From Lentisphaerota bacterium (GTDB lineage: Bacteria; Verrucomicrobiota; Lentisphaeria; Victivallales; Victivallaceae), in contig SUVY01000007.1 of assembly GCA_015061775.1 (NCBI GenBank), positions 1 to 64,000 of the forward strand: a DNA stretch of 64,000 bases. Direction: 5' to 3'. Each line of letters begins with the position of its first letter. Position 1 is the first letter of the stretch. The position numbers were made by a program, and so were the translations under genes. Under the pieces are notes generated by a model. That model was not told the DNA's origin, made no database searches, and worked only from the letters and a program-made list of their open reading frames with translations. Shown piece after piece: positions 1,302 to 59,544 of this stretch.

Positions 1302-1939
1302 TGTCCGAGACTCCTTTTGATGAGAGCTGCAAGTTTTTCGATATTCTGTTTTCCCGGAGCGATGAGTCCGCGCTCAAGCTTGATGTCAAAGCGCAGTTTC
1401 ATCCAGCCGAAGGGACCCTCTGCGGCGGGATAAGCTCCGTTTTCAGCGATGAGAGTTGACATGCCGTTTTCATCGGCGCAGATAAGACCCTCTTCGTTGA
1501 AGTAACCCACGACCGGCTGGTTGGTAACGTGTCCGTCTGAGTAATTCCCTTTGACAAAACAGATATCCTGCATGGTGTCCGGAAGCTCCTCGTTGAGCTC
1601 GAATTCGGCAGCCATTTTGTTTTCAAACTCTGCTACGGCGAAGATGATGTTCATTCCATCGACCTTTTCGGTGTGAAGCCGGGTGTATTCAGAGTTTGTC
1701 ACATCCTGTGCCGCATCCAGGAGCGAGAGAAAGTGGCTGTAAATAAATTCCTCTTCGCTGACCGCGTTCTTTTTGCAGCGCATAGAGGTGTAGCGCAGAC
1801 TGCAGAGCTTTCCTGAAAAGCCCTGGTTTTTGACGTTGCGGCACTTTTCTGATATCGGAAAATGCCTCCAGTAAAGCGCAACATAATAGTCTCCATCAGG
1901 GCGTTGCAGAGCCTGATATGGAGTTATGATTTCTTTCAT
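1298..1939 (-). CDS. Protein of unknown function in sugar operon
   Basis: 213 residues, not recognised. No signal peptide or membrane segment is visible, so it is probably cytoplasmic. The sequence is acidic in the middle, with ordinary aromatic content (for example YYVALYWRHF near residue 20 and GPFGWMKLRFDIKLERG near 180). It overlaps both neighbours by ATGA: its start overlaps the glycosidase stop and its stop overlaps the oxidoreductase start. That coupling argues it is a real gene whose product works with those two. I cannot assign a reaction. Confidence 0.7.
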   Translation of the reverse strand: MKEIITPYQALQRPDGDYYVALYWRHFPISEKCRNVKNQGFSGKLCSLRYTSMRCKKNAVSEEEFIYSHFLSLLDAAQDVTNSEYTRLHTEKVDGMNIIFAVAEFENKMAAEFELNEELPDTMQDICFVKGNYSDGHVTNQPVVGYFNEEGLICADENGMSTLIAENGAYPAAEGPFGWMKLRFDIKLERGLIAPGKQNIEKLAALIKRSLGQ

Positions 1940-33582: not shown

Positions 33583-36006
33583 ATGAAAAAGATCCTGTTG
33601 ATAATGCTCTGTGCCGCAGCATTGTTTTCTGTGATCCAGGCTGCTCCGAAGCGCAAAGCGCAGACTTATGAGAAGAACCGCCTTGAGTTGATCAAGCCGG
33701 TGAAAAAGGGAGTACTGCAGCTGCGTCCGACGTTCAACTCCTGCGGATTTTATTTCGGATCTTCCAAAGTGAAGTCTCCGGTTCTGGAGTACCGCAAGAG
33801 CGGAAGCGGAAAATGGCTCGCAGCTTTTACTCCTGTCCACTTCTTTGAGAATAAAAATACCGTGTCCGGGCTCGTGATGAATGAGTACCGCGGAAGTATC
33901 GTCAAGCTTGAAGAAAACACCTCCTATGATGTGCGGTTCAAAGACGGAAACAAAGTTTTGAAGCAGGGAAAATTCACCACCTGGAAAAGTAACGTTCCCA
34001 TCGCAAAAACAGTCTATATAGATACTGAAAACTTCAAAGCTCCCTATGTGATTTCTGCGAAGGGAACTCCCAACGGCTGGATACGCTATACCACCAAAAA
34101 CGGAAAAATTCTCAAAAACGATACTATCCAAAACACCATCGAGGTCAAAGACGCAGCTTACGTTCTCATCGACGATATGGTCATTCAGGGAACTGAAAAC
34201 AGCCGCAGCGTCATAACCATCACCAATTCCAAAAATGTCCGCGTGAGAAATTGCGACATATCCAAGTGGGGACGCGTTGGAGTTCCGAGATACGATTTTC
34301 TCGGTCAGTTCTATGTTTTCCCGAAAGACAAGAGCAAGATAGACTACAATCGTATGTACCGCTACCGCGTCAACTACGACGGAGCAATCGCTCTCAATCC
34401 GGGAACCAGCGAGACTGTGATCGAACGCTGCTACATCCATGATCCCTACGGCCGCGCGAACAGCTGGTATTACAGCCATCCTGCCGGACCTCAGGCAGTC
34501 ATGTGCAACAAGCCTGACCACAGCATAGTTATCCGCTACAACGACTTTATCGGCAGCGATCTGCACCGCTTCAACGACGCAGTCGAGAGCGCAGGAAACT
34601 TCCACAGCAACGGAGGTATCAACCGCGACGCCGACGTGTACGGAAACTTTATGATCTTCTGCAACGATGACTGCATTGAGCTCGACGGTGGACAGCAGAA
34701 CGTCCGTTGTTTCCAGAACCACTTTGAGGGAGCACTCTGCGGCGTATCCATTCAGGGCTGTATGACCAGTCCGGTGTATGTTTTTGAAAATATCTTCGGA
34801 GGTATCGGAGAAGAGTTCGGTATGACCAATGCCTCCATCAAGACCAGCGGAGGTATGGGAATTGCTCCTGTCTCATATATCTTCAACAACACCTTTGTCG
34901 GTCCGGGCAGTGCAATCAGTTTTAACGCCAATCTGAAGACAGATCTCAAGAACAACATCTTTGTCGATGCTCAGTACGTTGCAGGTTTCGAGCGCAACAA
35001 CGGAGGAGTCATCAAAAACAACTCTGTTGCCTGCAAAGACAATAAAGCGGTTGCGGGTATTGATAAAGTTGACTCAAAACTTGAGAATAAGGAGTTTGGA
35101 TTGTACGCTCCGGTTGACGTTCTCAAGGCTGAACGTATCGCCAACTTCTGTGAGGATACTTCCGCACGCGGAGCGATAGCCAAAGGCAGCAAAGAGCCGC
35201 TTCCTTACCGTCCGTTCCCGGTCGTTCTCGACCGCACCCGCATTGCCGGAGTTAAAGTCAAGGACGGTGCCGCAATGCCTGCTCAAGTCAAAATCACCGC
35301 GACTGTCGGAGGTAAAAACTTCAAATCCGCGTACACCATCCGCAAAAACGATGTCTTCGACTGGATCACGGTAACTCCTTCAAAAGGAGTCCTCAAATCC
35401 GGAGACAAGGTGACCTTTACCGTCAAATTCGATCCTGAAAAGATGAATGAACGCCGCATTTACCGCGGAGCCTTCAGTCTGCGTCTTGCCAACGGATTTT
35501 CACGTGTCGTCACCGTCTATGCCGATACAGACTTTGTCCAGCCGTTCAAACTTGAAAAAGCGGGAGAGACGGCAGTTTACATAGACCCTGTTCCTGCCAG
35601 GGCCTACCGCGTTAAAAACAACAAACCGTCAACCGTAACTCCGCGCGACAATCCGCTGGGAAGGGATGGAAAAGTAGTCATTCCGAGTTCCCGCAGCATC
35701 TATGAATACACCTTTGATGTTCCCAAAGACGGACGTTATTATGTGATGATCCACGGATGTATTCCCAAGTTCCGCACCACGATCTATGCGGCAGTAGATA
35801 ATGACAAAATGGAGCAGGCAATGCTTCAGGCAAAGCCCCACATGACCTGGATGCCGCTTGCACCGGCAGCAAGATTCGGTAACAGCAACCGTTACTATGA
35901 TTTGAAGAAAGGAACACACAAGCTCCGCATCAAAGCAGGAAAAAACACCTTTCACTTTGACGGAATCGTTGTGACCGATTCTCCCGGATCATTTGAGCCG
36001 CGTTAA
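33583..36006 (+). CDS. Secreted right-handed beta-helix protein (polysaccharide lyase/hydrolase-like), paralogue 1
   Basis: 807 residues. A signal peptide (KKILLIMLCAAALFSVIQAA) is followed by a fibronectin/Ig-like region to about 145. A right-handed parallel beta-helix covers about 145-510, with repeats such as VLIDDMVIQGTENS, VRVRNCDISKWG, VIRYNDFIGSD and DVYGNFMIFCNDDCIELDGG, the last resembling the Asp-Asp-Gly/Ile catalytic or metal site of polysaccharide lyases and epimerases. Residues about 560-640 look like a beta-sandwich. The C-terminus (YEYTFDVPKDGRYYVMIHG ... FHFDGIVVTDSPG) looks like a carbohydrate-binding module. The protein probably works outside the cell on a plant or host glycan; activity is unknown. 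A GAAAGGA site precedes ATG. Confidence 0.75.
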   Translation: MKKILLIMLCAAALFSVIQAAPKRKAQTYEKNRLELIKPVKKGVLQLRPTFNSCGFYFGSSKVKSPVLEYRKSGSGKWLAAFTPVHFFENKNTVSGLVMNEYRGSIVKLEENTSYDVRFKDGNKVLKQGKFTTWKSNVPIAKTVYIDTENFKAPYVISAKGTPNGWIRYTTKNGKILKNDTIQNTIEVKDAAYVLIDDMVIQGTENSRSVITITNSKNVRVRNCDISKWGRVGVPRYDFLGQFYVFPKDKSKIDYNRMYRYRVNYDGAIALNPGTSETVIERCYIHDPYGRANSWYYSHPAGPQAVMCNKPDHSIVIRYNDFIGSDLHRFNDAVESAGNFHSNGGINRDADVYGNFMIFCNDDCIELDGGQQNVRCFQNHFEGALCGVSIQGCMTSPVYVFENIFGGIGEEFGMTNASIKTSGGMGIAPVSYIFNNTFVGPGSAISFNANLKTDLKNNIFVDAQYVAGFERNNGGVIKNNSVACKDNKAVAGIDKVDSKLENKEFGLYAPVDVLKAERIANFCEDTSARGAIAKGSKEPLPYRPFPVVLDRTRIAGVKVKDGAAMPAQVKITATVGGKNFKSAYTIRKNDVFDWITVTPSKGVLKSGDKVTFTVKFDPEKMNERRIYRGAFSLRLANGFSRVVTVYADTDFVQPFKLEKAGETAVYIDPVPARAYRVKNNKPSTVTPRDNPLGRDGKVVIPSSRSIYEYTFDVPKDGRYYVMIHGCIPKFRTTIYAAVDNDKMEQAMLQAKPHMTWMPLAPAARFGNSNRYYDLKKGTHKLRIKAGKNTFHFDGIVVTDSPGSFEPR

Positions 36007-36117: not shown

Positions 36118-36172
36118 AAAACAACTTCATTTTGTGAGATGAGGCAACTTGAAAAAAGAAAGGAAAAGAGCA

Positions 36173-38647
36173 ATGTTAAAACGTTTTGCGCTTGTACTGC
36201 TTGCTGTATTCACAGTAATTGCAGTATGTCACGGAGCTAAACCCAAAAAACGCAGCCACATGGATAAAACCATGTCGGCACGTCAGAAAAAGATCGTAAA
36301 TTCACCGTTGGAAAAGAACCGTCTTGAGTTGATAAAGCCGGTCAAAAAAGGTGTGTTGCAGCTGCGTCCGACGTTCAACTCCTGCGGATTTTATTTCGGT
36401 TGTTCAAAGGTGAAGTCTCCGGTGCTTGAGTTTCGCAAGGCAGGAGAGACAGAATGGCAGCTTGCTCTTGCTCCGATCCACTATTTTGAGGATGGAAACA
36501 CCAAAACCGGACTTGTGATGAACGAGTACCGCGGAAGCATCGTCAAGCTCGATGAAAATACCGTCTATGAGATACGCTTCAAAGACGGCAGCAAGGTCTT
36601 GAAACAGGGAAAATTTACCACCTGGAAGAGCGATGTTCCTGTCGCAAAGACTATTTATATCGATCCCGCAAATTTCAAAGCTCCCTATACGATCTCTGCT
36701 AAGGGAACTCCCAAAGGCTGGATACGTTATGCGATAAAAGGAAACAAAAAACTTGCCGCCAACAGCAATACTCCGGTATTTGTGGTTAAAAATGCCGCGT
36801 ATGTCCTGATTGACGATATGACGATCACCAACGGCAAAGGAAGCCGCAGTGTCATAGATATCAGCAATTCGACCGGCGTCCGCGTCCGCAACTGCGATAT
36901 ATCCAAGTGGGGAAGAGTCGGAGTCGCGAAATACGATACTCCCAAAGGTGTTGGAATGTACTATATCAATGACTCCAAAGGAGTTCCCCGCGCGGTCAAC
37001 TACGATGGCGCAATCCAGATATTCAGCGGAAGCAAAGAGATCGTGGTCGAGCGTTGCTATATCCACGATCCTTACAGCCGGGCCAACAGCTGGTTTTACA
37101 GCCATCCGGCAGGACCTCAGGCTGTCATGTGCTACAAACCCGATCACAGCGTGGTCATCCGTTACAACGACTTTGTCGGCAGCGATGAACACCGTTTCAA
37201 CGATGCCGTTGAGAGCTCCGGAAACTTCCACAGCAACGGAGGTCTCAACCGTGACGCCGATGTGTACGGTAACTTCATGATCTACTGCAATGACGACAAT
37301 ATCGAGCTCGACGGAGGACAGCAGAATATGCGCTGCTTCTGGAACCGTTTTGAAGCCGCTCTCTGCGGAGTATCCGTCCAGGGATGCATGACCAGTCCGG
37401 TTTACGTATTCGAGAACCTCTTTGCCGGAATGTGCGGCGAGTTCGGAGAAGCCGGACAGACCATCAAAACCGGCGGCGGTAAACACGGAATCAACTCCTA
37501 CGCCTTTTTCTTCAACAACACTCTGGTTGACAAGGGCAGCGGTATTTCCATGATGCCGACGCTCAACAGCATTATCAAAAACAATGTGTTTACCCACACC
37601 CAGGGAATCAACAAAGCCTATATTTCTCCCCGTTCCAAATACGAAGCGAACTCTCTCAGCAGCAATTCCCGGAGCGGTTTCGGAGCCGGACGCGAGAAAT
37701 ATGATGCGAAATTTTCCAATGTCAAGACTGGAGACTTCACTCCTGTCGATACCGGCAAAGCCGTTGCCATCCCCAACTTCCTGCCCAACGGAGGTGACCG
37801 TGGAGCTTTCCAGAAAGAGAATACCATGAGTATCCCCTTCCGTCCTGTTCCGTTTGTGCTTGACACCAACAGGATCATCGACGTCAACGTCAAGGACGGC
37901 AATGCCGCTCCTGCCGAAGTCAAGGTGCTCTGCACCGTCGGCGGAGATAACTACCGCGCTGCGTATTCGATCCGCAAGAACGACGTCTTTGACTGGTTTG
38001 AAGTGACTCCTGCCAAAGGAATTCTCAAGTCCGGAGACAAAGTGACATTCACCGTCAGATTCAAGCCTGAAAAGATGAACAACCGCCGCAACTATCGTGG
38101 AGCGTTTCTCGTGCGTACTGCCGATGGATTTTCCAGAGTGGTTTCCATCTACGCCAAAACCGACTTTGTCCAGTCGTTCAAGCTCGAAAAAGCAGGAGAG
38201 AAGGCGATTTACATTGACGTTTTCAAAGGCAAAGCCTTCAACGCCAAGAAAAAAACTTCCACCAGTTTGAGTGTCAAAGATGACGCAATGGCAGAGGGAG
38301 GAAAGGTTGTTGTGCCGAGTTCCCGCAAGATCTATGAATATACTGTTGATGTTCCTGAGGACGGACGCTACTATTTCATGATCCACGGACGTGCCGCCAA
38401 GGATTCAGGAAATCCCCGCCTCAAAGTATCAGTCAACGACGCCAAGTTTGATATTTCCCGCCAGCAGACAGAATCTGATCGTATGACTTGGACGATGCTC
38501 ACTCCGGGCAGAGGATTCGGTCACATGAGTCAGCACTTTGATCTCAAAAAGGGAACGAACAAAGTGCGGATACAGAGTTCTACCGGAGTATTCCACTTCG
38601 ACGGATTGGTTCTCACCGATTCTCCCGGATCATTTGAGCCGCGGTAA
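36173..38647 (+). CDS. Secreted right-handed beta-helix protein, paralogue 2
   Basis: 824 residues from ATG at 36173, with AGGA nine bases upstream; the ORF track's TTG start adds eight lysine-rich residues. The signal peptide is LKRFALVLLAVFTVIAVCHG. From EKNRLELIKPVKKGVLQLRP on, it is collinear with paralogue 1 through all domains, including VLIDDMTI, YNDFVGSDEHRFNDAVE, CNDDNIELDGG and the FHFDGLVLTDSPGSFEPR end. The two differ most around residues 500-560 and in the C-terminal module, which is longer here. Same inferred role on an extracellular glycan, possibly with a different specificity. The pair points to a tandem duplication. Confidence 0.75.
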   Translation: MLKRFALVLLAVFTVIAVCHGAKPKKRSHMDKTMSARQKKIVNSPLEKNRLELIKPVKKGVLQLRPTFNSCGFYFGCSKVKSPVLEFRKAGETEWQLALAPIHYFEDGNTKTGLVMNEYRGSIVKLDENTVYEIRFKDGSKVLKQGKFTTWKSDVPVAKTIYIDPANFKAPYTISAKGTPKGWIRYAIKGNKKLAANSNTPVFVVKNAAYVLIDDMTITNGKGSRSVIDISNSTGVRVRNCDISKWGRVGVAKYDTPKGVGMYYINDSKGVPRAVNYDGAIQIFSGSKEIVVERCYIHDPYSRANSWFYSHPAGPQAVMCYKPDHSVVIRYNDFVGSDEHRFNDAVESSGNFHSNGGLNRDADVYGNFMIYCNDDNIELDGGQQNMRCFWNRFEAALCGVSVQGCMTSPVYVFENLFAGMCGEFGEAGQTIKTGGGKHGINSYAFFFNNTLVDKGSGISMMPTLNSIIKNNVFTHTQGINKAYISPRSKYEANSLSSNSRSGFGAGREKYDAKFSNVKTGDFTPVDTGKAVAIPNFLPNGGDRGAFQKENTMSIPFRPVPFVLDTNRIIDVNVKDGNAAPAEVKVLCTVGGDNYRAAYSIRKNDVFDWFEVTPAKGILKSGDKVTFTVRFKPEKMNNRRNYRGAFLVRTADGFSRVVSIYAKTDFVQSFKLEKAGEKAIYIDVFKGKAFNAKKKTSTSLSVKDDAMAEGGKVVVPSSRKIYEYTVDVPEDGRYYFMIHGRAAKDSGNPRLKVSVNDAKFDISRQQTESDRMTWTMLTPGRGFGHMSQHFDLKKGTNKVRIQSSTGVFHFDGLVLTDSPGSFEPR

Positions 38648-46818: not shown

Positions 46819-49542
46819 ATGAAATTTTATTACTTCAATTCAACCCACTGGGATCGTGAATGGTACCAGCCGTTTCAGGAGTTCCGCAAGTATCTTGTGG
46901 ACACAACTGCGGAGATGCTGGATATTTTCAAAAACGTTCCTGAGTTTGAAAAATTCACCTTTGACGGACAGACTATTGTGCTTGAAGATGTGACTGAGAT
47001 ACATCCTGAGTGGAGGAACGAGTTGGTGAAACTTGTTTCCGACGGCAAACTCAATGTCGGCCCGTGGTATGTCATGCCGGATGAATTTCTCTGTTCAGGA
47101 GAGGCTATGATGCGCAACTTCTCAGTCGGACACCAGGTCGCTGACGAGTTCGGAGGAAAAGTCTGGAAATCCGGCTATATCTGCGATATCTTCGGTCACA
47201 TTGCCCAGATGCCGCAGATCATGGCTGGCTTCGGTCTCAAGGGCGCGGTCGTGTGGAGAGGTTTCCCGGATGACAAAGGAGGCAAAGGCATCTGGGAGTC
47301 TCCGGACGGAACCCGCATCCCCGCTCTGCGTCTGCACCCCTTCTGCGGATACGGCAAGTTCAGTCTTGAAGTTCGCGGCTGGTGGAATGAAAAACTTGAT
47401 GAAAAATCAATGAAAGAGCGTCTTTCCAAATGGATAGAAGAGAACCGTTATTTCTTCGGAGACACTTTTGTTCTCAGCGATGCTCTCGATCATGCGGTTC
47501 CGTCGGCAGACACTCCGAAGCTGCTCAAATGGGTGAAGGAGCTTTATCCTGACGCCGAGGTCGTACACAGCGACTTCCTTGATTTCTTTGCCGAAGAGTT
47601 TGAAAACAGCGCGGAGCTTCCGGTTTTTGCCGGAGAGCAGATATATACCGCGAGCGGCAATCAGAACAACGGCTATCAGATACCCTATACTTTGAGTTCC
47701 CGTTACGATGTCAAACGCGCCAACGACCTCTGTCAGAACACGCTTGAACTGCTCATCGAGCCTGAGCTCGCCCGCCGCGCTGCCGACGGAGACACCAAAA
47801 GTCTGCCGTTCCTGCGTTGTCTCTGGAAAACTCTGCTCAAAAACCATCCGCACGATTCGATATGCGGCTGCTCTATCGACACCGTGCACCGTCAGGTGCT
47901 GGGGCGTTTCGAGGAAGTTCAGCAGCTTGCTTCCCGCATGGAGGAAGAGTTCCGTTTCATCGAACGCAAGCGCATTTCAGGCAAGACCATTGCCGAAGAG
48001 CTCAAAGGTTCGGACGGAATAGATAAATCCGACAAAGAGATCGCTGAAGACGGTAATTACACTCTGCGTCTCTACAATCCGCTTCCGTATGCAATGGATG
48101 GAGTCCGTGAGCTGACGATAGCGTTTCCGGCGATCACCCCCTATGTGTCGCGTCCTGAGGGAATGTTTATCAAAGATACCATTAACGCCTTCCGGCTGTT
48201 CGATGCCGACGGAGCTGAATTGCCTTATGTGATAAAAGCGCTCAAGCGCAATCAGGTGCGTCCATTCTGCCGTCAGGATGTCAGAAGATACGATGTCTAT
48301 ACCGTGGCGGCGAAGTGCCGTCTTGCTCCGTCATCGTGGACGAGCATTTCCATAAAGCCCTCAAAGTTTCAGGTGCGCAACTGGGGAAGTCTCGTTACCG
48401 GAGTCCGCTCAGCCGAAAATGGTATCATCAAACTTGAGATATCCAATGATGGAACATTCAGCGTGACTGATCTGCGTTCCGGAAGAGTTTACTCCAACCA
48501 GAACGAATACCTTATCGACCGCGATTGCGGAGACGGCTGGTATTTTGTCTCTCCGGCGGTCAACCCGACCGTTTGCGGAACCAATGACGTGACAGTCAGA
48601 CTTCTGCATAATATGAGCGATTACGCTGAGTTTGAAGTCATCAAGCGCTACCGGGTGGCAAAAGAGCTGGTCTGGAAAGGCAGCATAAACGAGTCATACG
48701 TCGGAGCTTTTGAGAGCGAAGAATATACCACGCTTGAAATAAAAAGTTATATCTCTCTTTCTTCATCAAGCGACAGCGTGAATGTCAGAACCGTGGTGGA
48801 TAATACCCTCTGCGACGCGAGAGTGCGTTTGAGAGTGCCGACCGGCATCGCGGGAAAATATTTCACAAGTCAGGTGGCGGCGATCCTTGAAAACAATATG
48901 GGTCGTCCGCATGGAGACGCTTCGATAAACATCGATGAGCCTGAGGTCATCGAACGCAACTTCGACGGAATTGCCGGAAAACGCGATGAAAAGGGCGGAA
49001 TCGCCTTTATCTCCAAAGCTGGCTTGCATGAGGTCGCCGGAATTCCGTACAGCAGCGATGAGGCACTTGCGGTCACTCTGTGGAGAAGTTTCCGCCGAAC
49101 CGTTATGACCAACGGAGAAATCGACGGACAGCTTTTGAAACGCCTTGAATTCAATTATTCGTTGAAGTGTTTTGATGCCGGCGTCTCTTACTCCGATATG
49201 GTGCGCGATATGCAGAAAATGCGAGCCGATGTTCCCAGCGATATCATAAAGAGCTGTGCGGTAAAGGAAAAGGATGCCGCTCCGTTCTTCGAGGTCAGCG
49301 GAGATCTGCTGCTCTCAGCCTGCAAGCCTGCCTGGAACGCGGAAGAAAACACCATTATCCTGCGTCTTGTGAACTACTCAGACGTTGAGGTCTCTTCAGA
49401 GGTCAAGTTTGACAGAAATATCCGCTCCGTGATGCTCTGCCGTCTCGATGAGAGCGAGATATCGGATGTCGAATTTTCCGCAAACACCTTCAAGGCAACC
49501 GCCGGCAAATGGGCGTACGTCACGTATAAGATAGCGTTCTAA
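46819..49542 (+). CDS. GH38 alpha-mannosidase
   Basis: 907 residues, the usual size for bacterial GH38. The N-terminal metal site is H10 and D12 (FNSTHWDREWYQPF), D123 in SGYICDIFGHIAQMPQI (also the nucleophile), with HPHDSICGCSIDTVHRQV supplying a further metal His. The rest is a large beta-sandwich region typical of the family. No signal peptide is present, so it is probably cytoplasmic and trims mannose from imported oligosaccharides, perhaps high-mannose or mucin-type glycans. GGAG lies about 11 bases upstream of ATG. It is monocistronic, with its own promoter and a terminator after the stop. Confidence 0.93.
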   Translation: MKFYYFNSTHWDREWYQPFQEFRKYLVDTTAEMLDIFKNVPEFEKFTFDGQTIVLEDVTEIHPEWRNELVKLVSDGKLNVGPWYVMPDEFLCSGEAMMRNFSVGHQVADEFGGKVWKSGYICDIFGHIAQMPQIMAGFGLKGAVVWRGFPDDKGGKGIWESPDGTRIPALRLHPFCGYGKFSLEVRGWWNEKLDEKSMKERLSKWIEENRYFFGDTFVLSDALDHAVPSADTPKLLKWVKELYPDAEVVHSDFLDFFAEEFENSAELPVFAGEQIYTASGNQNNGYQIPYTLSSRYDVKRANDLCQNTLELLIEPELARRAADGDTKSLPFLRCLWKTLLKNHPHDSICGCSIDTVHRQVLGRFEEVQQLASRMEEEFRFIERKRISGKTIAEELKGSDGIDKSDKEIAEDGNYTLRLYNPLPYAMDGVRELTIAFPAITPYVSRPEGMFIKDTINAFRLFDADGAELPYVIKALKRNQVRPFCRQDVRRYDVYTVAAKCRLAPSSWTSISIKPSKFQVRNWGSLVTGVRSAENGIIKLEISNDGTFSVTDLRSGRVYSNQNEYLIDRDCGDGWYFVSPAVNPTVCGTNDVTVRLLHNMSDYAEFEVIKRYRVAKELVWKGSINESYVGAFESEEYTTLEIKSYISLSSSSDSVNVRTVVDNTLCDARVRLRVPTGIAGKYFTSQVAAILENNMGRPHGDASINIDEPEVIERNFDGIAGKRDEKGGIAFISKAGLHEVAGIPYSSDEALAVTLWRSFRRTVMTNGEIDGQLLKRLEFNYSLKCFDAGVSYSDMVRDMQKMRADVPSDIIKSCAVKEKDAAPFFEVSGDLLLSACKPAWNAEENTIILRLVNYSDVEVSSEVKFDRNIRSVMLCRLDESEISDVEFSANTFKATAGKWAYVTYKIAF

Positions 49543-49621: not shown

Positions 49622-50464
49622 TCAGAACGTTGAGTCCGGAGTCTCTCCGATGGCAGATGAGAAATATTTTTTGCCTTTGATGAAATTGTAATTGGAGGTT
49701 TGGATAAACTCTCCCGGAGTGATGAGCGCAGCGTGACCATCAAGGAAGAGGGTACTGTTGCGTCCGTTATGCCTGAAGTTCGGGTAGCTGTTTCCTCCCC
49801 AGTAACACTTCCAGCTGGGAGTCTGAGGACGTCCTGCTTCGAGAATCATCTTGAATGCAGAGGGGCGTTTTACTGTTCCCGGAGGAATATGGCAGCCGAG
49901 GGTCGCGGTCGGGTGCATTTTGTATAAATCACGGTTGGTGTCAGAAGGAGTACCCGGAATCCAGGAGTAAAGTCCGAAAGAAGCGTAAGTGCTGTCCTTG
50001 GGGTTGCCTCCGCGTCTCTTGATCTCTTTTATTGTTGCGTATCCGCCGACAGACGGGCAGTAGAACATATCGGTTTTGGTAAGATAATTTCCGCAGAGCC
50101 TGAGAGTGATCTCACGGGATGCTGTGTTTCCGCCGATCTCCTGAACCAATTTTCTGCTGATCAGCATGGAATACGGAAGTCCGTAAACATCACTCTGCGG
50201 TATATCTGTGTTGGGGTACCAGATGACTACGGTATCCCGGTTGTTTGCGGCATATTGTGCCATACCGAGACCGATCTCTTTCATGTTATTGACACAGGTT
50301 GCAGACTTTGCTCTGTCTCTCGCACTTGAAAGCGCAGGCATCAGTATTGCGGCAAGGATAGCGATGATGGCGATCACGACAAGCAGTTCGATAAGCGTAA
50401 AACTCCGGAGTTTTATCTGCTCACCTTGAGCAGATAAATAACGTTTCCCAGCAGATGATTTCAT
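49622..50464 (-). CDS. Pseudopilin-like protein (prepilin N-terminal methylation domain)
   Basis: 280 residues. After a basic leader comes [20 protein letters not shown], the prepilin cleavage/methylation signal. [19 protein letters not shown] closely matches the protein at 9560-10423, so the two are recent paralogues in this part. The C-terminal [16 protein letters not shown] holds the H-X9-DG motif. It has a TTGCGG/TATAAT promoter like that of the paralogue, an AGAGGA site before ATG and a terminator, so it stands alone. Role presumably in a type II/pilus-like surface system, which this window does not encode. Confidence 0.9.
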
Positions 50465-50606: not shown

Positions 50607-53600
50607 TTATCTGCTGTTTCCGTGAGCTTTGATTTTCCAGGGCTCATGGTTTATTCCGCAGAGCACTTTGACCATCTCACAGCGGAACTCATAGCTGGTT
50701 TCCGGAATTATCACCACGGCGGCGATTTCGGCAGTGATATCGCGCATTGAGTGCAGGGTGATACCGTCTCCGGCGGAGATTCTGGTGAAGCGCGGAGAGT
50801 GATAGGGATATTTGTTCTGATCTCTATCGAGAGCGGCATCCCATCTGAAGCGGCTCCATCCTTTACCGTACTGAGCTTTGTAGAAGTCGTTTCCGGCATG
50901 GATGCCCTGCATGACTCCGAACATTTTTCCATCGGCGAGTTTGATTCCGATGATCGGATTTCTTTCGCACATGGTGGGAATGCGGCTGAGGGTCCAGACG
51001 AGATAACTGCCTTCGGCAAAGGGTTTGAATCCGAAACGCGCCTGCTCTCCGCGTTTGCTCAGGGAAACGCAGTCCTGGACGCGCTCTTTTCCGGCAGGAG
51101 CGGTTTTTCCGCCCTTGAGCAGTTTGGCATCTCTGGCAAGGGACATCTGGACGCCTTGAGCGACGAGGACAGTCAGTTCTTTCTTTGCTCCGTTGTCGTC
51201 GATGACCACGTTGTCAAAGCGCGGCAATGAGCCGCTGTTTTCAGCGGTGATGGTGAGTTTTCCATCCTTGAGTACAGCGGTCACTCCGTTGGTTGAGATG
51301 ACTTTTGCCTCTTTACCGGCTCCGGCTATTTCGTGAGTCACGCTCTTGCCGGGCTCGACCACGGTGAGCTGACGCTCGTTACCGGGAAGGGTTCCGGCGT
51401 AGGGAGCATCTTTTATCTCTATGCTCTTGACATCGCTTCTGTATGCCACAACAATATCGGCGGGAGCATTGTTTCTGCTCTTGAAAAGCAGGGAGTTCTT
51501 TCCGCCCTTGAGCTGGCAGTTCTGGAGGCGGCTGTTGAACATCACTTCAGTCCAGGCATCAAATTTTGCGATCTTTGCGATCGGAGCTTTGACTTTGATA
51601 ATATATCCCTGGCGGGCTCTCACAGCGTAGGTTGCAACTCCGTTGGCATCGGTGATGAGTTTGCGGAACGTTTTTGCTCCATCAGTTGATATCTCGATAT
51701 CAGCAGTTTTTCCATCGAGCGTAACAGCCTTGTATCCTGCTGCCACGATCGGGTAGGGCAGATCGACCTGATAACAGAAATCTTTGGGTGTCACGCGGGA
51801 GAAGGTGAGCTTGTTGTCTGCGGGCTTTCCGCTGAAAGAGAGGTAGGCGTTCGAGTAGTGCGGGAACGGCCTTATGACCTTGTAGAGCTGCTCATTTGCG
51901 ACAACTTCGGCAGGAGCCTTGGATATGACGGACAACTCCTTGGGGTAGGGGAACTTGTCATGCGGATGCACGGCGTTGGGGTCGATGCAGCGTTTGTTCT
52001 GGATATCGTTGTAGGCTCCGTCATTGTAGAAGTAGAGACGCATTTTCTCTCCCGGACGCAGGTTGTAGGCGATGCGCTGCTGCATGACAGGAGTGTTTCT
52101 TGCATACCAGCGGGATACTCCCTGACGGGCAAACGCTCCTCCTGAGTTTTTGTAACGCTGGAAGGGACCGTTTTCGATATCAAGCTGTCTCAGGCTGGCA
52201 GCGGTCTCGTTGTCATGGGCAGGGAAAAATCTCTGGGCAGAGAGGTCATAAACGTGGTTTTTGCCATCGTAGAAGACCTGCTCAAAGGCGTGACCGTAGC
52301 CTCCGATCATCGTTGCGGGAAGCATTCCGGAGCAGGTGAACATATTGGCAGTCATGTTGTTCAACGGACCGCACTCAAATCCGCAGTAGTTGTTGAGCAT
52401 GGAAAGTGCCTGATAGTCGGCTCTGCGGGCAGCGTTTGAGTGGGGAATGAAACTGACCTGATTGGTCATGAAGTAATCACTTGCCTTCAACACCAGATTG
52501 AAGAGGATATTGGCGCGGTCTTTTTCGCTGACTTTATCCATTTTGAGACTGTCGGCGAGGTCTCCGAAGCTGCGGGTATCGAGTTCATCGTTGGCGATGA
52601 GCACGGGGTGTGACACTCCCTTGACTCCGGAGGGGCAGGCTATCTCGACATAGTCCATGTAGGTGTTGGCTGGAACGCTGACGACTTTGCTTTTTCCGTG
52701 TGAGGCACGGAACTTGATGACTCCTGATTTTCTCGCCGCCTTGAAGTCTTTTACCGAAGGCAGCACGGGGTAGTTGAGTGTATTGAGGACGATGTCCGGA
52801 TTTGAGTGGTCCTGCAGTTTGGCAGGATAATACTGGATGACCTTTTCTCCCAGTTTGAATTTGCGGGATGAGAGCGGAAGATATTTGTGGTTGACTGATG
52901 CGGAAATATTTCCCTGTCCCCACGCGCTCTTTCCGTCTATATTGTGGTCGAAGTTGAAGAGGGCTGCAGTCCTGCTGTCGCACTTGAACTCTTTTGCCGG
53001 AGTGAAATCTTTATCGTAACGTTTTCCCTCAGAGATACGGACAAGATCCATTTGGAAAGGTGCCAGCGGAGCCGCTTTGGTCTGGTCGAAGCTTTTGCGG
53101 TGCATTCCGAGGTTTCCGCCGAACTCTACCTGCTGGACAGAGAGACCGTTGGGTTTTTTATCGCTGAAAATATCGCGGGGCTTGTAGCTGTATTTGCTGT
53201 CGTTGAAAATCCTTTTTCCATTGATATAGCAGGAAAATCCATCTTTACCATATTGAAAAGCGAGATGGCTCCAGCTGTTGAGTTCCACCTTGCCGGGGAA
53301 AGTGAAGGTGCGGTTTTTGAGAGTTGCATCTTTGACCTGAACTTTCCATCTTCCTCTTGAGGGAAGGTAGGTGGCTGTGAACATTGCTCCGAAAGGAGAT
53401 TTGTAGTTTCTGCGGTCTTCTCTGTCGCGGTTCATCGCGGTAACGACGATGAGTTCACGTTTTTCCCCCTTGTTCCACGTCGGGCGGAACCAGAGTTCGA
53501 CAGTGGCATCATTCTGGGGCCAGCAGGTCTCATGCTGTCCGCGCAGCTGTTTGCCTTCTGCGTAAACCGAGTGGCTGTTCGGAGTATAGAAAAATATAGT

Positions 53601-54524
53601 TCTGCCGTCGAGATTGAATGCGGTATCTCCGTCTTTTCCGGAAATACCTTTGGCGAAAAAGTGTTTGTCGTAAGCCGGGAACGGCAGCTGAGCCGCCTGT
53701 CTTACTGCGAGCTTGCTCAGCTCCACTTCAGCGAGTGAGACGGAGTGGTCTTTGATTCTGATACCATAGTTGTCAAAGGCGTATTTCGGAGAGACCATCT
53801 CAAAAGCGAAGGCGATCTTTACCGCGTCTTTGTGGAAATATCCGGTTTCGATGTGATGAGTGACGACTCCCGGAGCGCGCATAAGGCTTATCCAGCGCGG
53901 ATCGGTGAGGCTTTCGGCGAGCAGTTTGCCATTTTTGTCATACTGTTCGACTTTGGTTCCGTTGCCCCAGGTGAGTTTTGAGAGTGACTTGACGGTGAAT
54001 TCAAGTTTAGCCGGAGTTCCTGCGTATCCGGCAGGAAGGGTGACAAAATATTTGACGGTGCTGGTACCGTGGGATTTGATTTTAAATGACACGCCGTTTG
54101 CAGTGACTTTTGCAGCGGTATTTTTGGGAACGCTCCACTTGGAGGTGCTTTTCAAAGCTCCGGCAAAGAGATTGTCAGTCGAGTTTGCACAGGATTTTTT
54201 GACTTTTGCGCTGCCGGCTCTTCCAATCAGACGGACAGTTCCGGCGGGGACTTTGAACCGGAGTGTTTCAACTCCTTTGACGTTTGAGTCGAGTATAGCG
54301 GTATCGAGCTTTGTTTCGCCTTTTTTGCTGACAGCGAAGACTTCGATAGCCTGATCTTTGCCGACTACGGCGAGTTTTTCGAGTTTGTTTCTGTCGAGGA
54401 CAGTCTCGTAAGATAACGTAGTGTCGAAGCGTGGATTCCACTCAAGCGGAATATCGTTTGCGGCGGCAAACAGCGTTCCGGCGGAAGCTGCTGCGATAAA
54501 GATAGATAAAAGTTTTTTTACCAT
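50607..54524 (-). CDS. Very large secreted LamG/transglutaminase-like protein
   Basis: 1305 residues with a signal peptide (KKLLSIFIAAASAGTLFAAA). Residues about 1-300 are several beta-sandwich-like stretches. A LamG domain lies about 330-490 (NDATVELWFRPTW, LNSWSHLAFQYGKDGFSCYI). Residues about 690-800 resemble a transglutaminase/papain-like core: C718 in FECGPLNNM, H745 in GGYGHAFEQVFYDG and D760 in VYDLS, in the order and spacing of the family. The C-terminal 450 residues look like more beta-sandwich modules. It probably acts outside the cell, cross-linking or cleaving a protein or glycan-linked peptide, or is an inactive scaffold. It is the last gene of a four-gene operon and has AAGGAG before ATG. 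Confidence 0.65.
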   Translation of the reverse strand: MVKKLLSIFIAAASAGTLFAAANDIPLEWNPRFDTTLSYETVLDRNKLEKLAVVGKDQAIEVFAVSKKGETKLDTAILDSNVKGVETLRFKVPAGTVRLIGRAGSAKVKKSCANSTDNLFAGALKSTSKWSVPKNTAAKVTANGVSFKIKSHGTSTVKYFVTLPAGYAGTPAKLEFTVKSLSKLTWGNGTKVEQYDKNGKLLAESLTDPRWISLMRAPGVVTHHIETGYFHKDAVKIAFAFEMVSPKYAFDNYGIRIKDHSVSLAEVELSKLAVRQAAQLPFPAYDKHFFAKGISGKDGDTAFNLDGRTIFFYTPNSHSVYAEGKQLRGQHETCWPQNDATVELWFRPTWNKGEKRELIVVTAMNRDREDRRNYKSPFGAMFTATYLPSRGRWKVQVKDATLKNRTFTFPGKVELNSWSHLAFQYGKDGFSCYINGKRIFNDSKYSYKPRDIFSDKKPNGLSVQQVEFGGNLGMHRKSFDQTKAAPLAPFQMDLVRISEGKRYDKDFTPAKEFKCDSRTAALFNFDHNIDGKSAWGQGNISASVNHKYLPLSSRKFKLGEKVIQYYPAKLQDHSNPDIVLNTLNYPVLPSVKDFKAARKSGVIKFRASHGKSKVVSVPANTYMDYVEIACPSGVKGVSHPVLIANDELDTRSFGDLADSLKMDKVSEKDRANILFNLVLKASDYFMTNQVSFIPHSNAARRADYQALSMLNNYCGFECGPLNNMTANMFTCSGMLPATMIGGYGHAFEQVFYDGKNHVYDLSAQRFFPAHDNETAASLRQLDIENGPFQRYKNSGGAFARQGVSRWYARNTPVMQQRIAYNLRPGEKMRLYFYNDGAYNDIQNKRCIDPNAVHPHDKFPYPKELSVISKAPAEVVANEQLYKVIRPFPHYSNAYLSFSGKPADNKLTFSRVTPKDFCYQVDLPYPIVAAGYKAVTLDGKTADIEISTDGAKTFRKLITDANGVATYAVRARQGYIIKVKAPIAKIAKFDAWTEVMFNSRLQNCQLKGGKNSLLFKSRNNAPADIVVAYRSDVKSIEIKDAPYAGTLPGNERQLTVVEPGKSVTHEIAGAGKEAKVISTNGVTAVLKDGKLTITAENSGSLPRFDNVVIDDNGAKKELTVLVAQGVQMSLARDAKLLKGGKTAPAGKERVQDCVSLSKRGEQARFGFKPFAEGSYLVWTLSRIPTMCERNPIIGIKLADGKMFGVMQGIHAGNDFYKAQYGKGWSRFRWDAALDRDQNKYPYHSPRFTRISAGDGITLHSMRDITAEIAAVVIIPETSYEFRCEMVKVLCGINHEPWKIKAHGNSR

Positions 54525-54547: not shown

Positions 54548-55207
54548 TCAAAGTTGTTTTTCAAGCTGCCAAGAGAAAGTGTTTCCGATATGGTCGGTCG
54601 CGCTCAGGGTGTCTCCGGCAGAGAGCGAGCCGACACCGGGAGGCGTTCCTGTATAGATGAGGTCACCGCTCTTGAGTTCCCAGTATTTGGATATCTCCAT
54701 GATGAGTTCAGGGATCGGGAATATCATTTTTGCGGTGTTGCCCTGCTGACGGAGCGTTCCGTTGATGCTTCCGGAAAATTGCAGAGCGGCAAGATCATCT
54801 GCGGTTCCTGAGAATGCGGAAAAGTTTCCGATGGGCGCGCTGTCATCGAATCCCTTGCAGATATCCCACGGGAGAGCTTTGGAAAGCAGACGGTTTTGGG
54901 TCTCACGCAGGGTGAGATCATATCCAACTGCGAGGGCTCCAACGAAAGAGACAGCTTCTTCCGTTGACGCCGGAATTCCGTCTTTGCCGATAAGCACCAC
55001 AAGTTCAATCTCAAAGTGCGGAGTCTCTCCGCAGCGGGGAAAACGCACTGTTTTTCCCGCAGGAACAAGGGAGGTCGGAGGCTTGGAAAAAATCACCGGA
55101 CTTGCCGGCCGGTCGTTTCCCAGCTCTTCAATATGTTCCACATAGTTTCTGCCGATACAGAATATCCTGCGGCAGATATACTCATTCCGGTTCACAATGA
55201 ATTTCAT
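54548..55207 (-). CDS. Fumarylacetoacetate hydrolase family protein
   Basis: 219 residues, the size of the short FAH-domain enzymes. IFCIGRNYVEHIEELGN and VIFSKPPTSLVPAGKTVRFP open the domain. HFEIELVVLIGKDG supplies metal-binding Glu residues, and LIYTGTPPGVGSLSAGD closes the family signature. These are cytoplasmic divalent-metal enzymes that cleave C-C bonds or act as acylpyruvate hydrolases or oxaloacetate decarboxylases. The start overlaps the MBL gene stop as ATGA. The substrate is not indicated. Confidence 0.9.
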   Translation of the reverse strand: MKFIVNRNEYICRRIFCIGRNYVEHIEELGNDRPASPVIFSKPPTSLVPAGKTVRFPRCGETPHFEIELVVLIGKDGIPASTEEAVSFVGALAVGYDLTLRETQNRLLSKALPWDICKGFDDSAPIGNFSAFSGTADDLAALQFSGSINGTLRQQGNTAKMIFPIPELIMEISKYWELKSGDLIYTGTPPGVGSLSAGDTLSATDHIGNTFSWQLEKQL

Positions 55208-56010
55208 AATGGATCACTTTCGATAAGTTGTTTGAATTTTTCTTCAAAATTATTGAGCATACTTATCCACGACTGCGGATCGATAAATGCATCGGTTTCT
55301 CCGTTCAGAACTCTGTTTCCGCGTCCGATGGTGTCGTTCTGGGAGCAGTGGTTGCCGACGTTGATATGAACGGTTCTGGTTTTGCAGTAAGCGATAGATT
55401 TTATGTATGCCTCCCGCCAGTTTTCAGCTTCAAGATTGTACTTCTTTATATACGGAGTGCGGAGCGTATTCAAACCGAGTCCTCCCATCATGGCTGATGT
55501 GAGAGTTCCGGCGGGAGTTTGAGTTTCCCAGAAGAACGAGAATGTTCCAGGAGTATGTCCCGGAGTTGACACACATTCTATTTTGGTGTTTCCGAGCTCG
55601 AGGATATATCCGTCTTCCATGACGATGTCCGGAGTGAATGTCTGGAAATCCATTCCCAGGTCTTTAGCTGCGACGAGATCATTTTCTCCTGTTACCATTC
55701 CGCAGTCATCTTTGCCTACGATGGTTTTTGCTCCGGTCAATTCGGCGAGGGCGCGGGTCGCTCCCGAGTGGTCGATGTGACCGTGGGAGTGCAGGATATA
55801 TTTTATGTCATGCGGATCGAATCCGAGCTTGTATATGTTGTCGATAACTCCGTAAAGAGTCTCAAAGTATCCTGAGTCTATGAGGATAATACCGTCTCCG
55901 GTATCAATGATGTGGGTCGATGCCGGAACGGTTCCGACAAAGTAGATGTTACCGCACAACCTGAACGGAGTTGCAATATTTCCCCATTTGTGTTTTTTAG
56001 TTTCAGCCAT
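55204..56010 (-). CDS. MBL-fold metallohydrolase
   Basis: 268 residues from ATG at 56010, which has GAGG seven bases upstream; the ORF-track ATG at 56025 adds five residues and lacks a site. IKYILHSHGHIDHSGATRAL carries the HxHxDH metal site. CVSTPGHTPGTFSFFWE and VHINVGNHCSQNDT supply further metal ligands. Length and the THIIDTGDGIILIDSGYFE start fit the subclass that includes B3-like lactamases and general hydrolases. No signal peptide, so cytoplasmic. It lies in an operon between a lipid-modifying fusion and a FAH-family enzyme. Substrate unknown. Confidence 0.9.
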   Translation of the reverse strand: MAETKKHKWGNIATPFRLCGNIYFVGTVPASTHIIDTGDGIILIDSGYFETLYGVIDNIYKLGFDPHDIKYILHSHGHIDHSGATRALAELTGAKTIVGKDDCGMVTGENDLVAAKDLGMDFQTFTPDIVMEDGYILELGNTKIECVSTPGHTPGTFSFFWETQTPAGTLTSAMMGGLGLNTLRTPYIKKYNLEAENWREAYIKSIAYCKTRTVHINVGNHCSQNDTIGRGNRVLNGETDAFIDPQSWISMLNNFEEKFKQLIESDPL

Positions 56011-56040
56011 CGTATGCCTCTTCATTCGTGATTTTCAGTT

Positions 56041-59000
56041 TCAGTCATTATATTTTGCGGCTTCCTGATTGAGTGACGCAAGATCGAGTTTCCCGTTTCC
56101 GAGCAGCGGAAGCTGGGGAATATATATAAAGTTTTCCAGTTTGGGTATCCACAAGTTCGGAATCTGTTTCTCTCTCAATTTTTTTACTACCTGCTCAGGA
56201 GCAAGTTTTTCGCGGTTGCAGTAAAACACTATGAGTTTTTCACCCTTCACAGCGTCATTTGCTCCGCAAACGGCGAGCAGCCGGTCTTCAGGACAGAGGA
56301 TGTTGTTGATCTCTCTCTCAACGAGCTCATGAGGAACCATTTCGCCGGCGATCTTGCTGAAACGGGACAGACGTCCGGTGATGGTGATGAAGCCGCGGCG
56401 CGACATACGGGCGATATCTCCGGTGATATACCAGCCGTCACGGATGACTTCGTTGGTCTTTTCTGGCTCTCCGAGATAACCCTTCATAACGATCGCACCC
56501 TTGACGATGAGCAGACCGTCGGTGTTTTCCGGCATGAGTTCAAAGGTGGATGGATCGACAACTTTTGCACAAACACCGATGAGCGGCGGTCCGATGCTTC
56601 CGGGTTCGACGACGTGAGTACCCATCTCGTTAACTGAGGCGGCGAGGTTGATGGAGACCACGGGAGAAAGCTCCGTGCAGCCGTAAGCCTCGGTGATGAC
56701 AAGACCGGTCATGTTCCGGAATCTCTCTGCAACATCATCGCGGAGCTTTTCCGCTCCGGTAATGACTATGCGGATATTTTTGAAGTCCTCCGGAACACAT
56801 TTTCTCATATAGAGCTGGAGAAATCCCGGAGTTGCACTCAAGACTGTGAGATTTCCATACTTCATGGACTCTGCAACGCTTGCTGCATCAAGCGGGTTGG
56901 GGATAAGAACGGTTCTTGTTCCAGTAACGATCGGCATCCAGAAGCATACCGCCATTCCGAAGGAGTGGAACAGCGGAAGATTGCCGACGACACCGTCGTT
57001 CTTGCGGTAGCTTATTGAGTTGCTTATGGAGAGCACATCAGCAATTATATTGTGGTGGGTGAGCATGATTCCCTTGGGAATACCGGTCGAACCGCTGGAA
57101 AAAATCAGAGCTCCGACCCGGTTGACGTCGTTCCAGTTTTCCGGAGAGACCTGTTTCATCAGCTCATCGGCGGGGAATACCGTTGCAGCGATGAACCAGC
57201 AGAATTTGCTCCAGATGGTGCAGCAGTTCTTTTTTGCATCCTCGATAAAGATTATTTCAGCATCAGTTTCGAGATGTGTCTTCTCAAGAACTTTTCTTGA
57301 GGTGATGATACGTTTCAACTGAGCTTTTTCGATGGCTATTTTGAGCGATTGTATTCCGGCGGTGTAGTTCAGGATCGCCGGAGCCTTGTTCGCCATTTGT
57401 ACTCCGAGCATGGCGTTCGCAAAATCCAGGGAGTTCGGCAGCATGATTCCGACATATTCCGACTCGTTTTTCGGAGCTGTTCGGCGCAGATATCTGCTCA
57501 GAAGCAGCGACTTCATAAAGAGTCTGAAATTGCCCTGTTTTTTCCATTCCGGAGCGGTGCACTCTGAAAATATCCTGCTGAACGGATTTCTCTTTGCCTG
57601 ATAGCAGAAAAGCGTGTGCAATGGTTTTGCGGAAGCGTCCGGAATAAGTTCGGTATCAGCCCCGAGTTCCGCCATGATGATACGCATTTCATAAGCGTTT
57701 GTCTCTTTGGGAATGGGGTTTCCGATGGTCACGGAAGCCGGATGTCTCCGCAATCCCGGCAGGCGCAACTTGAATCTGCCATCCTGACTGCATGAAAAAA
57801 TGCTTCCCCAGGTCATGCCTATGCGCATCGGAATGACCGGAATATCCATATCCTCCGGAAGCCAGTTGCCGATACCGTTTCTGAAGCTCGACATGGTTCC
57901 GTTGCGGGTGATGTCGTCTTCAGGAAATACGCAGATGAGTTCTCCGCTTTTGAGCAGCTGCCGGGTGTTCTGGATGAGCTCTTTGTGTTTCTGCACCCGT
58001 TTGCTCGGAACTTCAAGAAATCCAATGGATTTATAGAGCGTGTGCAGGACAGGTACCCGGTAGTAGTGTTCATGCATCATAAAGCGGATCGGACGGCTGG
58101 TGCAAGCCGATATAAAGAGGATATCCACGAATGAAGCCCGGTTGGCGACCAGCAGGGCTGGACCGCTTTCAGGAAGGCGTTCTGCGTTGTAAATATTGAG
58201 CCGGTATATAGTGTCGAGCATGATTCTGAAGAGCATACGCAGCAGGAATTGCGGCATGAGAGTAAAGCTGACTATTGAGAGCGTCAGAGTGAGCAGCGCA
58301 ACGACGAGCGATACGGTGAAGATGCTGACGTTGAAGTAATACATGAGGAACGCAAGGACGATAGCCAGCAGGATACCTCCGGAAAATTGCAGATAGAACC
58401 AGCTGAAAAAGCGCGGAGCGAAATCCTGCTTGATAAAGTATGCCTGATAACATTGCAGCGGAACGAGTATGCTTCCTGAAGCAAATCCGAAGATAAAGAG
58501 CAGAATGACCAGAAAACTGCCTTCGGCGTAGCGGTCTCCGGCAAAAGGAAGCATTCCGACGGCGAGTGCAGAGAGGATCATGAAGACGATTCCGGTGGGC
58601 ACGATACCGATTTCAACGTTGCCTTTGGAGCGGCAGCCTGAGGAGATTATTCCGAGAACGCTTCCGATGATCGGAGTCGCCATGAGAAAGTATTGCAGGT
58701 AGAGATTATCGGTTACTGTGGTGAAGTGCAGTCCGAGATATTGTACTGCGATAGAGGATATGAGTATCAATGCGGCAAAGACGTAACACTCTCCGACGCC
58801 GGTCATGACAAGTTCGCGGTATCTCTGCAGCTTGACCATTCCTTTGGGAAGCTTTATTTTGAGCTCGAGCTTGAGTTCATCAACATCAGCCTGCGGAGCC
58901 GGAGTTGATTCGAGAAGAGAGGAAAATATCATTGCAGCAGCAGCCGGGATGATGGCAAGTCCGAGTGCGAGACTTCCGTCAAGATGGCATTGTACAGCTG

Positions 59001-59517
59001 CGATTCCGCTGATGGTGCCGAGGGTGATTCCGGAAAAAGTGGCACATTCAGTTGTCGCGCAGATGGTTGCAAGCCGCTTCAATTTTACTGTTTTTGAGGT
59101 GTAAACTTTTAGGGCAGGGCGGTATATGGACAAATTCAATCCCATCAGCACAGCGATCACAAAGAGTGGAATATAGCCTGTGATATCGACAAATCCAATT
59201 ATGACAGTTGCTGCCGTCGCAATGAATATCTCGATCAACCGGCTGTAAAACATCACATTGCGCGCCGAGAAACGTGCCAGAAATCCGCTCGATGCCGCGC
59301 TGCTGCACAGCCAGGGAATGGTATAGAAGGCGGACAGTACGAGCACGTTGAGTGCGTGCTGTTTGAATATCGGAGCGTTTCTGTACATCAGAAGCGCAAC
59401 TATAGTGCAGAAATATACCGGATTGAATGAACTGAAGAAGTTCATGCAGAATATATTGGCTGCACTCACATTATATTTGTTTTTCTCATGGTAGTGTGGC
59501 ATATACTCAAGTTCCAT
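56041..59517 (-). CDS. LplT-like MFS / PlsC-like acyltransferase / acyl-ACP synthetase fusion (Aas type)
   Basis: 1158 residues from ATG at 59517. The ORF-track TTG at 59541 lies upstream of the transcription start predicted from the promoter at 59545-59573. Residues about 20-420 are a twelve-helix MFS domain like lysophospholipid transporter LplT. Residues about 460-640 resemble PlsC, but motif I reads ANRASFVD, with Arg where the family has the catalytic His; motif III (VFPEDDITRNG) is present. Residues about 660-1150 are an AMP-binding acyl-CoA/ACP synthetase: LIFSSGSTGIPKGIMLTHHN, WYITGDIARM and the catalytic Lys in GNGKLDLAS. Fused versions remodel lysophospholipids in the inner membrane. 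The altered acyltransferase site is odd. Confidence 0.85.
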   Translation of the reverse strand: MELEYMPHYHEKNKYNVSAANIFCMNFFSSFNPVYFCTIVALLMYRNAPIFKQHALNVLVLSAFYTIPWLCSSAASSGFLARFSARNVMFYSRLIEIFIATAATVIIGFVDITGYIPLFVIAVLMGLNLSIYRPALKVYTSKTVKLKRLATICATTECATFSGITLGTISGIAAVQCHLDGSLALGLAIIPAAAAMIFSSLLESTPAPQADVDELKLELKIKLPKGMVKLQRYRELVMTGVGECYVFAALILISSIAVQYLGLHFTTVTDNLYLQYFLMATPIIGSVLGIISSGCRSKGNVEIGIVPTGIVFMILSALAVGMLPFAGDRYAEGSFLVILLFIFGFASGSILVPLQCYQAYFIKQDFAPRFFSWFYLQFSGGILLAIVLAFLMYYFNVSIFTVSLVVALLTLTLSIVSFTLMPQFLLRMLFRIMLDTIYRLNIYNAERLPESGPALLVANRASFVDILFISACTSRPIRFMMHEHYYRVPVLHTLYKSIGFLEVPSKRVQKHKELIQNTRQLLKSGELICVFPEDDITRNGTMSSFRNGIGNWLPEDMDIPVIPMRIGMTWGSIFSCSQDGRFKLRLPGLRRHPASVTIGNPIPKETNAYEMRIIMAELGADTELIPDASAKPLHTLFCYQAKRNPFSRIFSECTAPEWKKQGNFRLFMKSLLLSRYLRRTAPKNESEYVGIMLPNSLDFANAMLGVQMANKAPAILNYTAGIQSLKIAIEKAQLKRIITSRKVLEKTHLETDAEIIFIEDAKKNCCTIWSKFCWFIAATVFPADELMKQVSPENWNDVNRVGALIFSSGSTGIPKGIMLTHHNIIADVLSISNSISYRKNDGVVGNLPLFHSFGMAVCFWMPIVTGTRTVLIPNPLDAASVAESMKYGNLTVLSATPGFLQLYMRKCVPEDFKNIRIVITGAEKLRDDVAERFRNMTGLVITEAYGCTELSPVVSINLAASVNEMGTHVVEPGSIGPPLIGVCAKVVDPSTFELMPENTDGLLIVKGAIVMKGYLGEPEKTNEVIRDGWYITGDIARMSRRGFITITGRLSRFSKIAGEMVPHELVEREINNILCPEDRLLAVCGANDAVKGEKLIVFYCNREKLAPEQVVKKLREKQIPNLWIPKLENFIYIPQLPLLGNGKLDLASLNQEAAKYND

Positions 59518-59544
59518 CGTTATAAATAAAGATACAATCAATAT

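Follow-up and report, generated by a model that had tools for sequence, protein, structure and literature searches.

The question raised by this locus is what a large secreted protein might do when a LamG domain is followed, in one chain, by a cysteine, a histidine and an aspartate in the order of transglutaminase-like enzymes. The window, by which we mean the whole stretch of 64,000 nucleotides that was analysed, encodes such a protein (Table 1) in a reading frame that begins with ATG and holds no internal stops. By eye, its N-terminus is a typical Sec-type signal sequence (MVKKLLSIFIAAASAGTLFAAAN), hydrophobic N-termini are alike in other copies of the family, and neither a lipobox nor a sorting signal was seen by eye in the 1305-aa protein, so that nothing in it points to anchoring at the cell surface. 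The LamG match scores 46.6 bits against a cut-off of 27.6 and lies N-terminal to the triad, whose context reads NNYCGFEC(718)GPLNN ... GGYGH(745)AFEQVFYDGKNHVYD(760)L, so that the three residues and their placement after LamG, as given in the initial annotation, are borne out by the sequence and by the PF13385 model. From the N-terminus onward, the modules would be a beta-rich region, LamG, a Cys-His-Asp core of the transglutaminase superfamily and C-terminal beta-sandwich modules. When the C-terminal sandwich was compared by Foldseek, GOLD, collagenase collagen-binding and CBM35 sandwiches were returned, none of them significantly (E at least 0.01).

Table 1. Features of the locus and of related genes in the window.
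Feature	Coordinates	Strand	Basis or remark
Gene for secreted LamG/transglutaminase-like protein	50607..54524	-	ORF, 1305 aa
Signal peptide (MVKKLLSIFIAAASAGTLFAA)	54462..54524	-	residues ~1-21, read by eye
LamG / concanavalin-A-like domain	53199..53528	-	residues 333-442, Pfam PF13385, E 5.2e-12
Transglutaminase-like catalytic core (predicted)	52089..52592	-	residues 645-812; AlphaFold2, Foldseek, hhalign
C718, predicted nucleophile	52371..52373	-	invariant in 47 sequences; first residue of helix in model
H745, predicted catalytic His	52290..52292	-	invariant in 47 sequences; start of second strand in model
D760, predicted catalytic Asp	52245..52247	-	invariant in 47 sequences; end of third strand in model
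C-terminal beta-sandwich, possibly accessory module	51537..51860	-	residues ~889-996, AlphaFold2 pLDDT mostly 90-98
Pseudopilin-type secreted protein (N-terminal methylation motif, DUF1559-like), next downstream gene	49622..50464	-	Pfam N_methyl
Beta-helix partner-family member, non-adjacent	33583..36006	+	61% identical to beta-helix gene beside C97 cluster
Second beta-helix partner-family member, non-adjacent	36149..38647	+	59% identical to C97 beta-helix protein

The catalytic region is named by no Pfam or NCBIfam model, and its recognition in the initial annotation is therefore a find that routine annotation had missed. Transglut_core (PF01841) gave no Pfam match in the window protein or in 24 members of the family, and sequence searches of the PDB with the full protein and with a family profile returned nothing meaningful. 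We predicted the structure of the region with AlphaFold2 in two models, one of residues 555-1010 (456 residues, built with the 47-sequence alignment, pLDDT 86) and one of the core (pLDDT 80.8). In both, C718 opens a helix and three strands come after it, the second beginning with H745 and the third ending with D760; as judged from the secondary structure of the two models, this is the order of PF01841 and of the superfamily.

Foldseek searches with the 456-residue model placed no transglutaminase among the best 50 matches, which were dominated by weak beta-sandwich ones, and for this reason the core was modelled alone. With the core model, ranks 1-5 against the PDB were all members of the transglutaminase superfamily with solved structures, at probability 1.00 and with modest E-values from 3.6e-3 to 3.3e-2, none below 0.001: a TGase (4xz7), a putative cysteine protease (3isr), TglA and TgpA, the last with two entries. 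Lower ranks held PNGase, arylamine N-acetyltransferase, menin and XPC-complex entries, which we take to have the transglutaminase fold, to contain such a fold or to belong to the wider papain-like fold. By hhalign, the alignment of the core compared with 22 PF01841 proteins gave 92.9% (P 3.8e-7) with the Cys, His and Asp in register; the value was 42.7% (P 2.5e-4) when the bridging rows were left out and 0.1% in a control with an unrelated profile. A bridging homologue of 505 aa (G063), found with the family profile, itself passes the PF01841 cut-off, with the match covering the same C-H-D. The initial annotation had called for a fold prediction and a fold search over residues 690-800, and what was seen there is a predicted transglutaminase fold and no unrelated one. 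Given the Foldseek matches, the hhalign comparison, the bridging homologue, the triad and the predicted fold, the family almost certainly belongs to the transglutaminase superfamily, and the transglutaminase-like core proposed at the outset stands. The family is a superfamily member outside Pfam family PF01841 as modelled, and the predicted fold class and putative triad are well supported.

Conservation is concentrated on the same three residues, beyond what chance would give. C718, H745 and D760 are invariant in 24 homologues, and in an alignment of 47 sequences from 23 genomes, the most distant rows of which are 16-25% identical, they are the only invariant columns; the invariant Cys-His-Asp order is the one expected of the transglutaminase superfamily. 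The other nearby cysteine, C714, is replaced by alanine in two of the 24 homologues. Compared with its closest homologue in the congeneric sister genome (G052), the window gene is under purifying selection (dN 0.24, dS ~1.2), with the tightest constraint on the transglutaminase region (dN 0.14).

The window gene is one of 12 family members in its genome (G000; 2.7 Mb in 107 contigs), the other 11 being 32-55% identical to the window protein and five of the copies lying on one 27-kb contig (C97), all in the same orientation. The LamG model PF13385 matches all 12, in 11 of them over its cut-off. The sister genome holds 11 matches to the transglutaminase core, and in a tree of cores most copies of the two genomes pair as orthologues, which places most of the expansion before the split between them. 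The family is otherwise patchy, with matches in 20 of 198 genomes of the class and in 17 of 388 genomes sampled from the phylum, distant ones counted in both cases. A public relative is present in the MAG RUG12478, of presumably rumen origin, to judge from the RUG prefix. In one G052 copy (L026, C76:3683-7546), the aligned stretch contains an in-frame TAG and the open frame begins past the usual signal peptide, which may reflect either a lost signal or an assembly error.

The neighbours and fusions of the relatives point to carbohydrates. A family of secreted right-handed beta-helix proteins of ~800 aa, with matches to PF13229 that range from weak to significant, recurs beside the transglutaminase-like genes: a gene of this family directly adjoins a family member at two loci in the window genome (C97 and C22), at one in the sister genome (C90), at both loci of G136, in G042 (~10 bp apart) and in RUG12478, and at a further locus of the sister genome (C76) it is one pseudopilin away. 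G136 has only three genes of the beta-helix family, and two of the three adjoin its only two transglutaminase-like genes. Over four genomes, six such adjacencies were observed against 0.15 expected, for which a rough Poisson estimate, with gene numbers approximated from genome size and events that are not fully independent, gives P ~2e-8. The beta-helix-linked copies are spread over several branches of the core tree. The start of the transglutaminase-like gene of G016 is directly bordered by another, different beta-helix gene. Two fusions add weight to this association: a 1949-aa protein in G052 has an N-terminal beta-helix (PF13229 just under the cut-off, 1.3e-5), and a 2116-aa family member in G417 has an N-terminal GH28 domain (8e-21). 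Furthermore, the C11 copy has a GH106 alpha-L-rhamnosidase gene as its direct neighbour, the C72 copy has a GH35 gene in its vicinity and the G191 copy is preceded by the gene for a protein with weak rhamnosidase similarity. Taken as a hint only, GH28 and GH106 would point to a plant polysaccharide rich in rhamnose and uronic acid. The assemblies are fragmented, and the gene neighbourhoods are incomplete to that extent.

Within 10 kb of the window copy itself there is no beta-helix gene; the tandem beta-helix pair of the window is on the opposite strand, at a distance of 12-17 kb. The family to which this pair belongs is itself expanded, with ~14 copies in the window genome, and carries the strongly conserved motifs HDP, NDD and ELDGGQQN.

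The gene next downstream of the window copy encodes a pseudopilin-type protein, with N_methyl above the Pfam cut-off and a weak match to SBP_bac_10. Pseudopilin genes adjoin six of the 12 copies in the genome against 0.6 expected (P ~5e-5), an adjacency that we read as a link to secretion or to the surface. The genome holds 61 genes with this N-terminal methylation motif above the Pfam cut-off in 2.7 Mb. Together with the gene content, the DUF1559-like pseudopilins suggest that the host belongs to the Lentisphaeria/Verrucomicrobiota. Other nearby genes were considered as partners and set aside. The FAA hydrolase and metallo-beta-lactamase genes upstream (54548-56025) are likewise found ahead of the homologue in the sister genome; they are beside no other copy examined and for that reason look like local synteny. 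A GH38 alpha-mannosidase gene (46819-49542) lies on the opposite strand, and no other copy was seen with such a neighbour. Elsewhere in the window, a further large LamG protein of 970 aa (1936-4848, reverse strand; LamG at 4183-4440) falls outside the transglutaminase-like family, and an ORF of 1166 aa (56041-59541, reverse strand) appears by eye to combine a transporter-like (MFS) part, an acyltransferase and an AMP-binding ligase, a layout that is presumably that of lysophospholipid repair proteins of the Aas/LplT type.

Based on these observations, we favour, with a rough probability of 0.55, a secreted Cys-His-Asp amide-bond hydrolase, either a peptidase or an amidase, that works with polysaccharide depolymerases. 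That relatives are beside or fused to carbohydrate-degrading proteins suggests that the enzyme helps to dismantle complex glycans or glycoproteins by way of their protein (amide) bonds. LamG folds can have glycans or proteins as ligands, and LamG together with the sandwich modules would tether the enzyme to its substrate, a complex glycan or glycoprotein. C718 would then attack an amide carbonyl to form a thioester, which water, helped by H745 and D760, would resolve, giving peptidase or amidase action. The target may be the protein part of glycan-rich material, such as a plant cell-wall glycoprotein or a mucin-type glycoprotein of the host, the beta-helix depolymerases would take the polysaccharide part, and the many divergent copies may serve different substrates. 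In this form, the proposal of the initial annotation, an enzyme that is anchored to a glycan and acts on a peptide attached to it, is plausible from the sequence, with LamG present and carbohydrate-active neighbours and fusions among the relatives. Bacteria of this kind, from gut and rumen, break down glycans of great complexity, and few of the enzyme systems involved have been described. That a multi-copy family of secreted cysteine enzymes recurs beside putative polysaccharide-active beta-helix proteins suggests a regular role for amide or peptide chemistry in their glycan breakdown, and the family provides a defined protein with a predicted nucleophile, together with a partner, on which this can be tested.

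We infer the substrate, and likewise the choice between hydrolysis and cross-linking; hydrolysis over transfer is a prior, preferred on account of the degradative partners and because the transglutaminase-like cellulosome proteins of Ruminococcus flavefaciens were classed among the peptidases (PMC2930009). A possible, more tentative formulation is that of a new class of accessory enzyme for glycan breakdown, of transglutaminase fold and with a Cys-His-Asp triad, paired or fused with beta-helix depolymerases, that cuts the protein-glycan or amide/ester linkages by which complex polysaccharides stay together; substrates might then be rhamnose-rich pectins or glycoproteins, with copies each tuned to a different one.

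The protein could instead be a true transglutaminase, an acyl transferase that cross-links proteins, or that links glycan-associated proteins to surface proteins or pseudopilins of the same cell, and so serves adhesion and not digestion. Fold and triad are as in the protein cross-linking transglutaminases, the best Foldseek match (4xz7) is described as a TGase, from Streptococcus (PMC10318531), and half of the copies in the window genome have pseudopilin genes beside them. Pseudopilin genes are, however, common throughout this genome and may reflect export and not substrate, and fusions and neighbours are of glycan-degrading types and not adhesins, so that we regard cross-linking as unlikely.

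It is doubtful that the enzyme acts on the glycan itself, where its target would be an amide or else an ester cross-link of the polysaccharide. PNGases, which share the fold and strip N-glycans from proteins, are in the Foldseek list for the core, one member is fused to a pectinase-type GH28 enzyme, others are beside beta-helix proteins, and the GH38 alpha-mannosidase gene is close to the window copy. PNGases are nevertheless not the closest structural match; at ranks 8, 11 and 12 (E 0.07-0.15) they stand below the TGase and cysteine-protease structures, and the position of the GH38 gene, on the other strand and seen beside this copy only, also speaks against a role on the glycan. Finally, a catalytically dead scaffold, in which the transglutaminase fold is kept as a binding module beside LamG, has precedents in non-enzymatic folds of this type (menin and the XPC/TFIIH complex entries of the Foldseek list) but is very improbable, given that the triad alone among all columns is unchanged across 47 divergent sequences and that no part of the protein is more constrained than the core.

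The amide-bond hydrolase that we prefer can be set against several known systems. In the searchable literature, we found no description of an architecture of LamG with transglutaminase, nor of the pairing with beta-helix proteins and the scale of the expansion; the superfamily itself is known. The initial annotation had taken the layout to be undescribed, which holds for the combination of LamG with transglutaminase and does not extend to secreted transglutaminase-like proteins as such, known from fibre degraders (PMC2930009). According to that paper, R. flavefaciens FD-1 carries a head-to-tail cluster of five dockerin-bearing transglutaminase-like ORFs, which its authors counted with peptidases, and with this run of five, secreted transglutaminase-like enzymes in fibre degraders are not new (PMC2930009). 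Compared by description, the proteins of FD-1 and the present family are alike in being secreted and in several copies, in FD-1 in a fibre-degrading gut bacterium, and they differ in that the former are attached to the cellulosome by dockerins; neither a LamG-transglutaminase protein nor a beta-helix fusion turned up in the accessible part of the account (PMC2930009). The GH28 and beta-helix (PF13229) enzymes, fused to or beside family members, are partners and not the same enzyme. The closest predicted fold is that of TgpA of Pseudomonas aeruginosa and of bacterial transglutaminase-like structures (PDB 6g49, 4xz7, 3isr, 9crn; Foldseek probability 1.00). TgpA sits in the inner membrane, with its transglutaminase domain in the periplasm, and to our knowledge has neither LamG nor glycan-enzyme partners. 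With Transglut_core PF01841, the present family shares the cysteine at the start of a helix, the histidine and aspartate on the following strands and a triad in register, and it differs in having YCGFECGPLNN around the cysteine, inside a LamG protein of 1300 aa.
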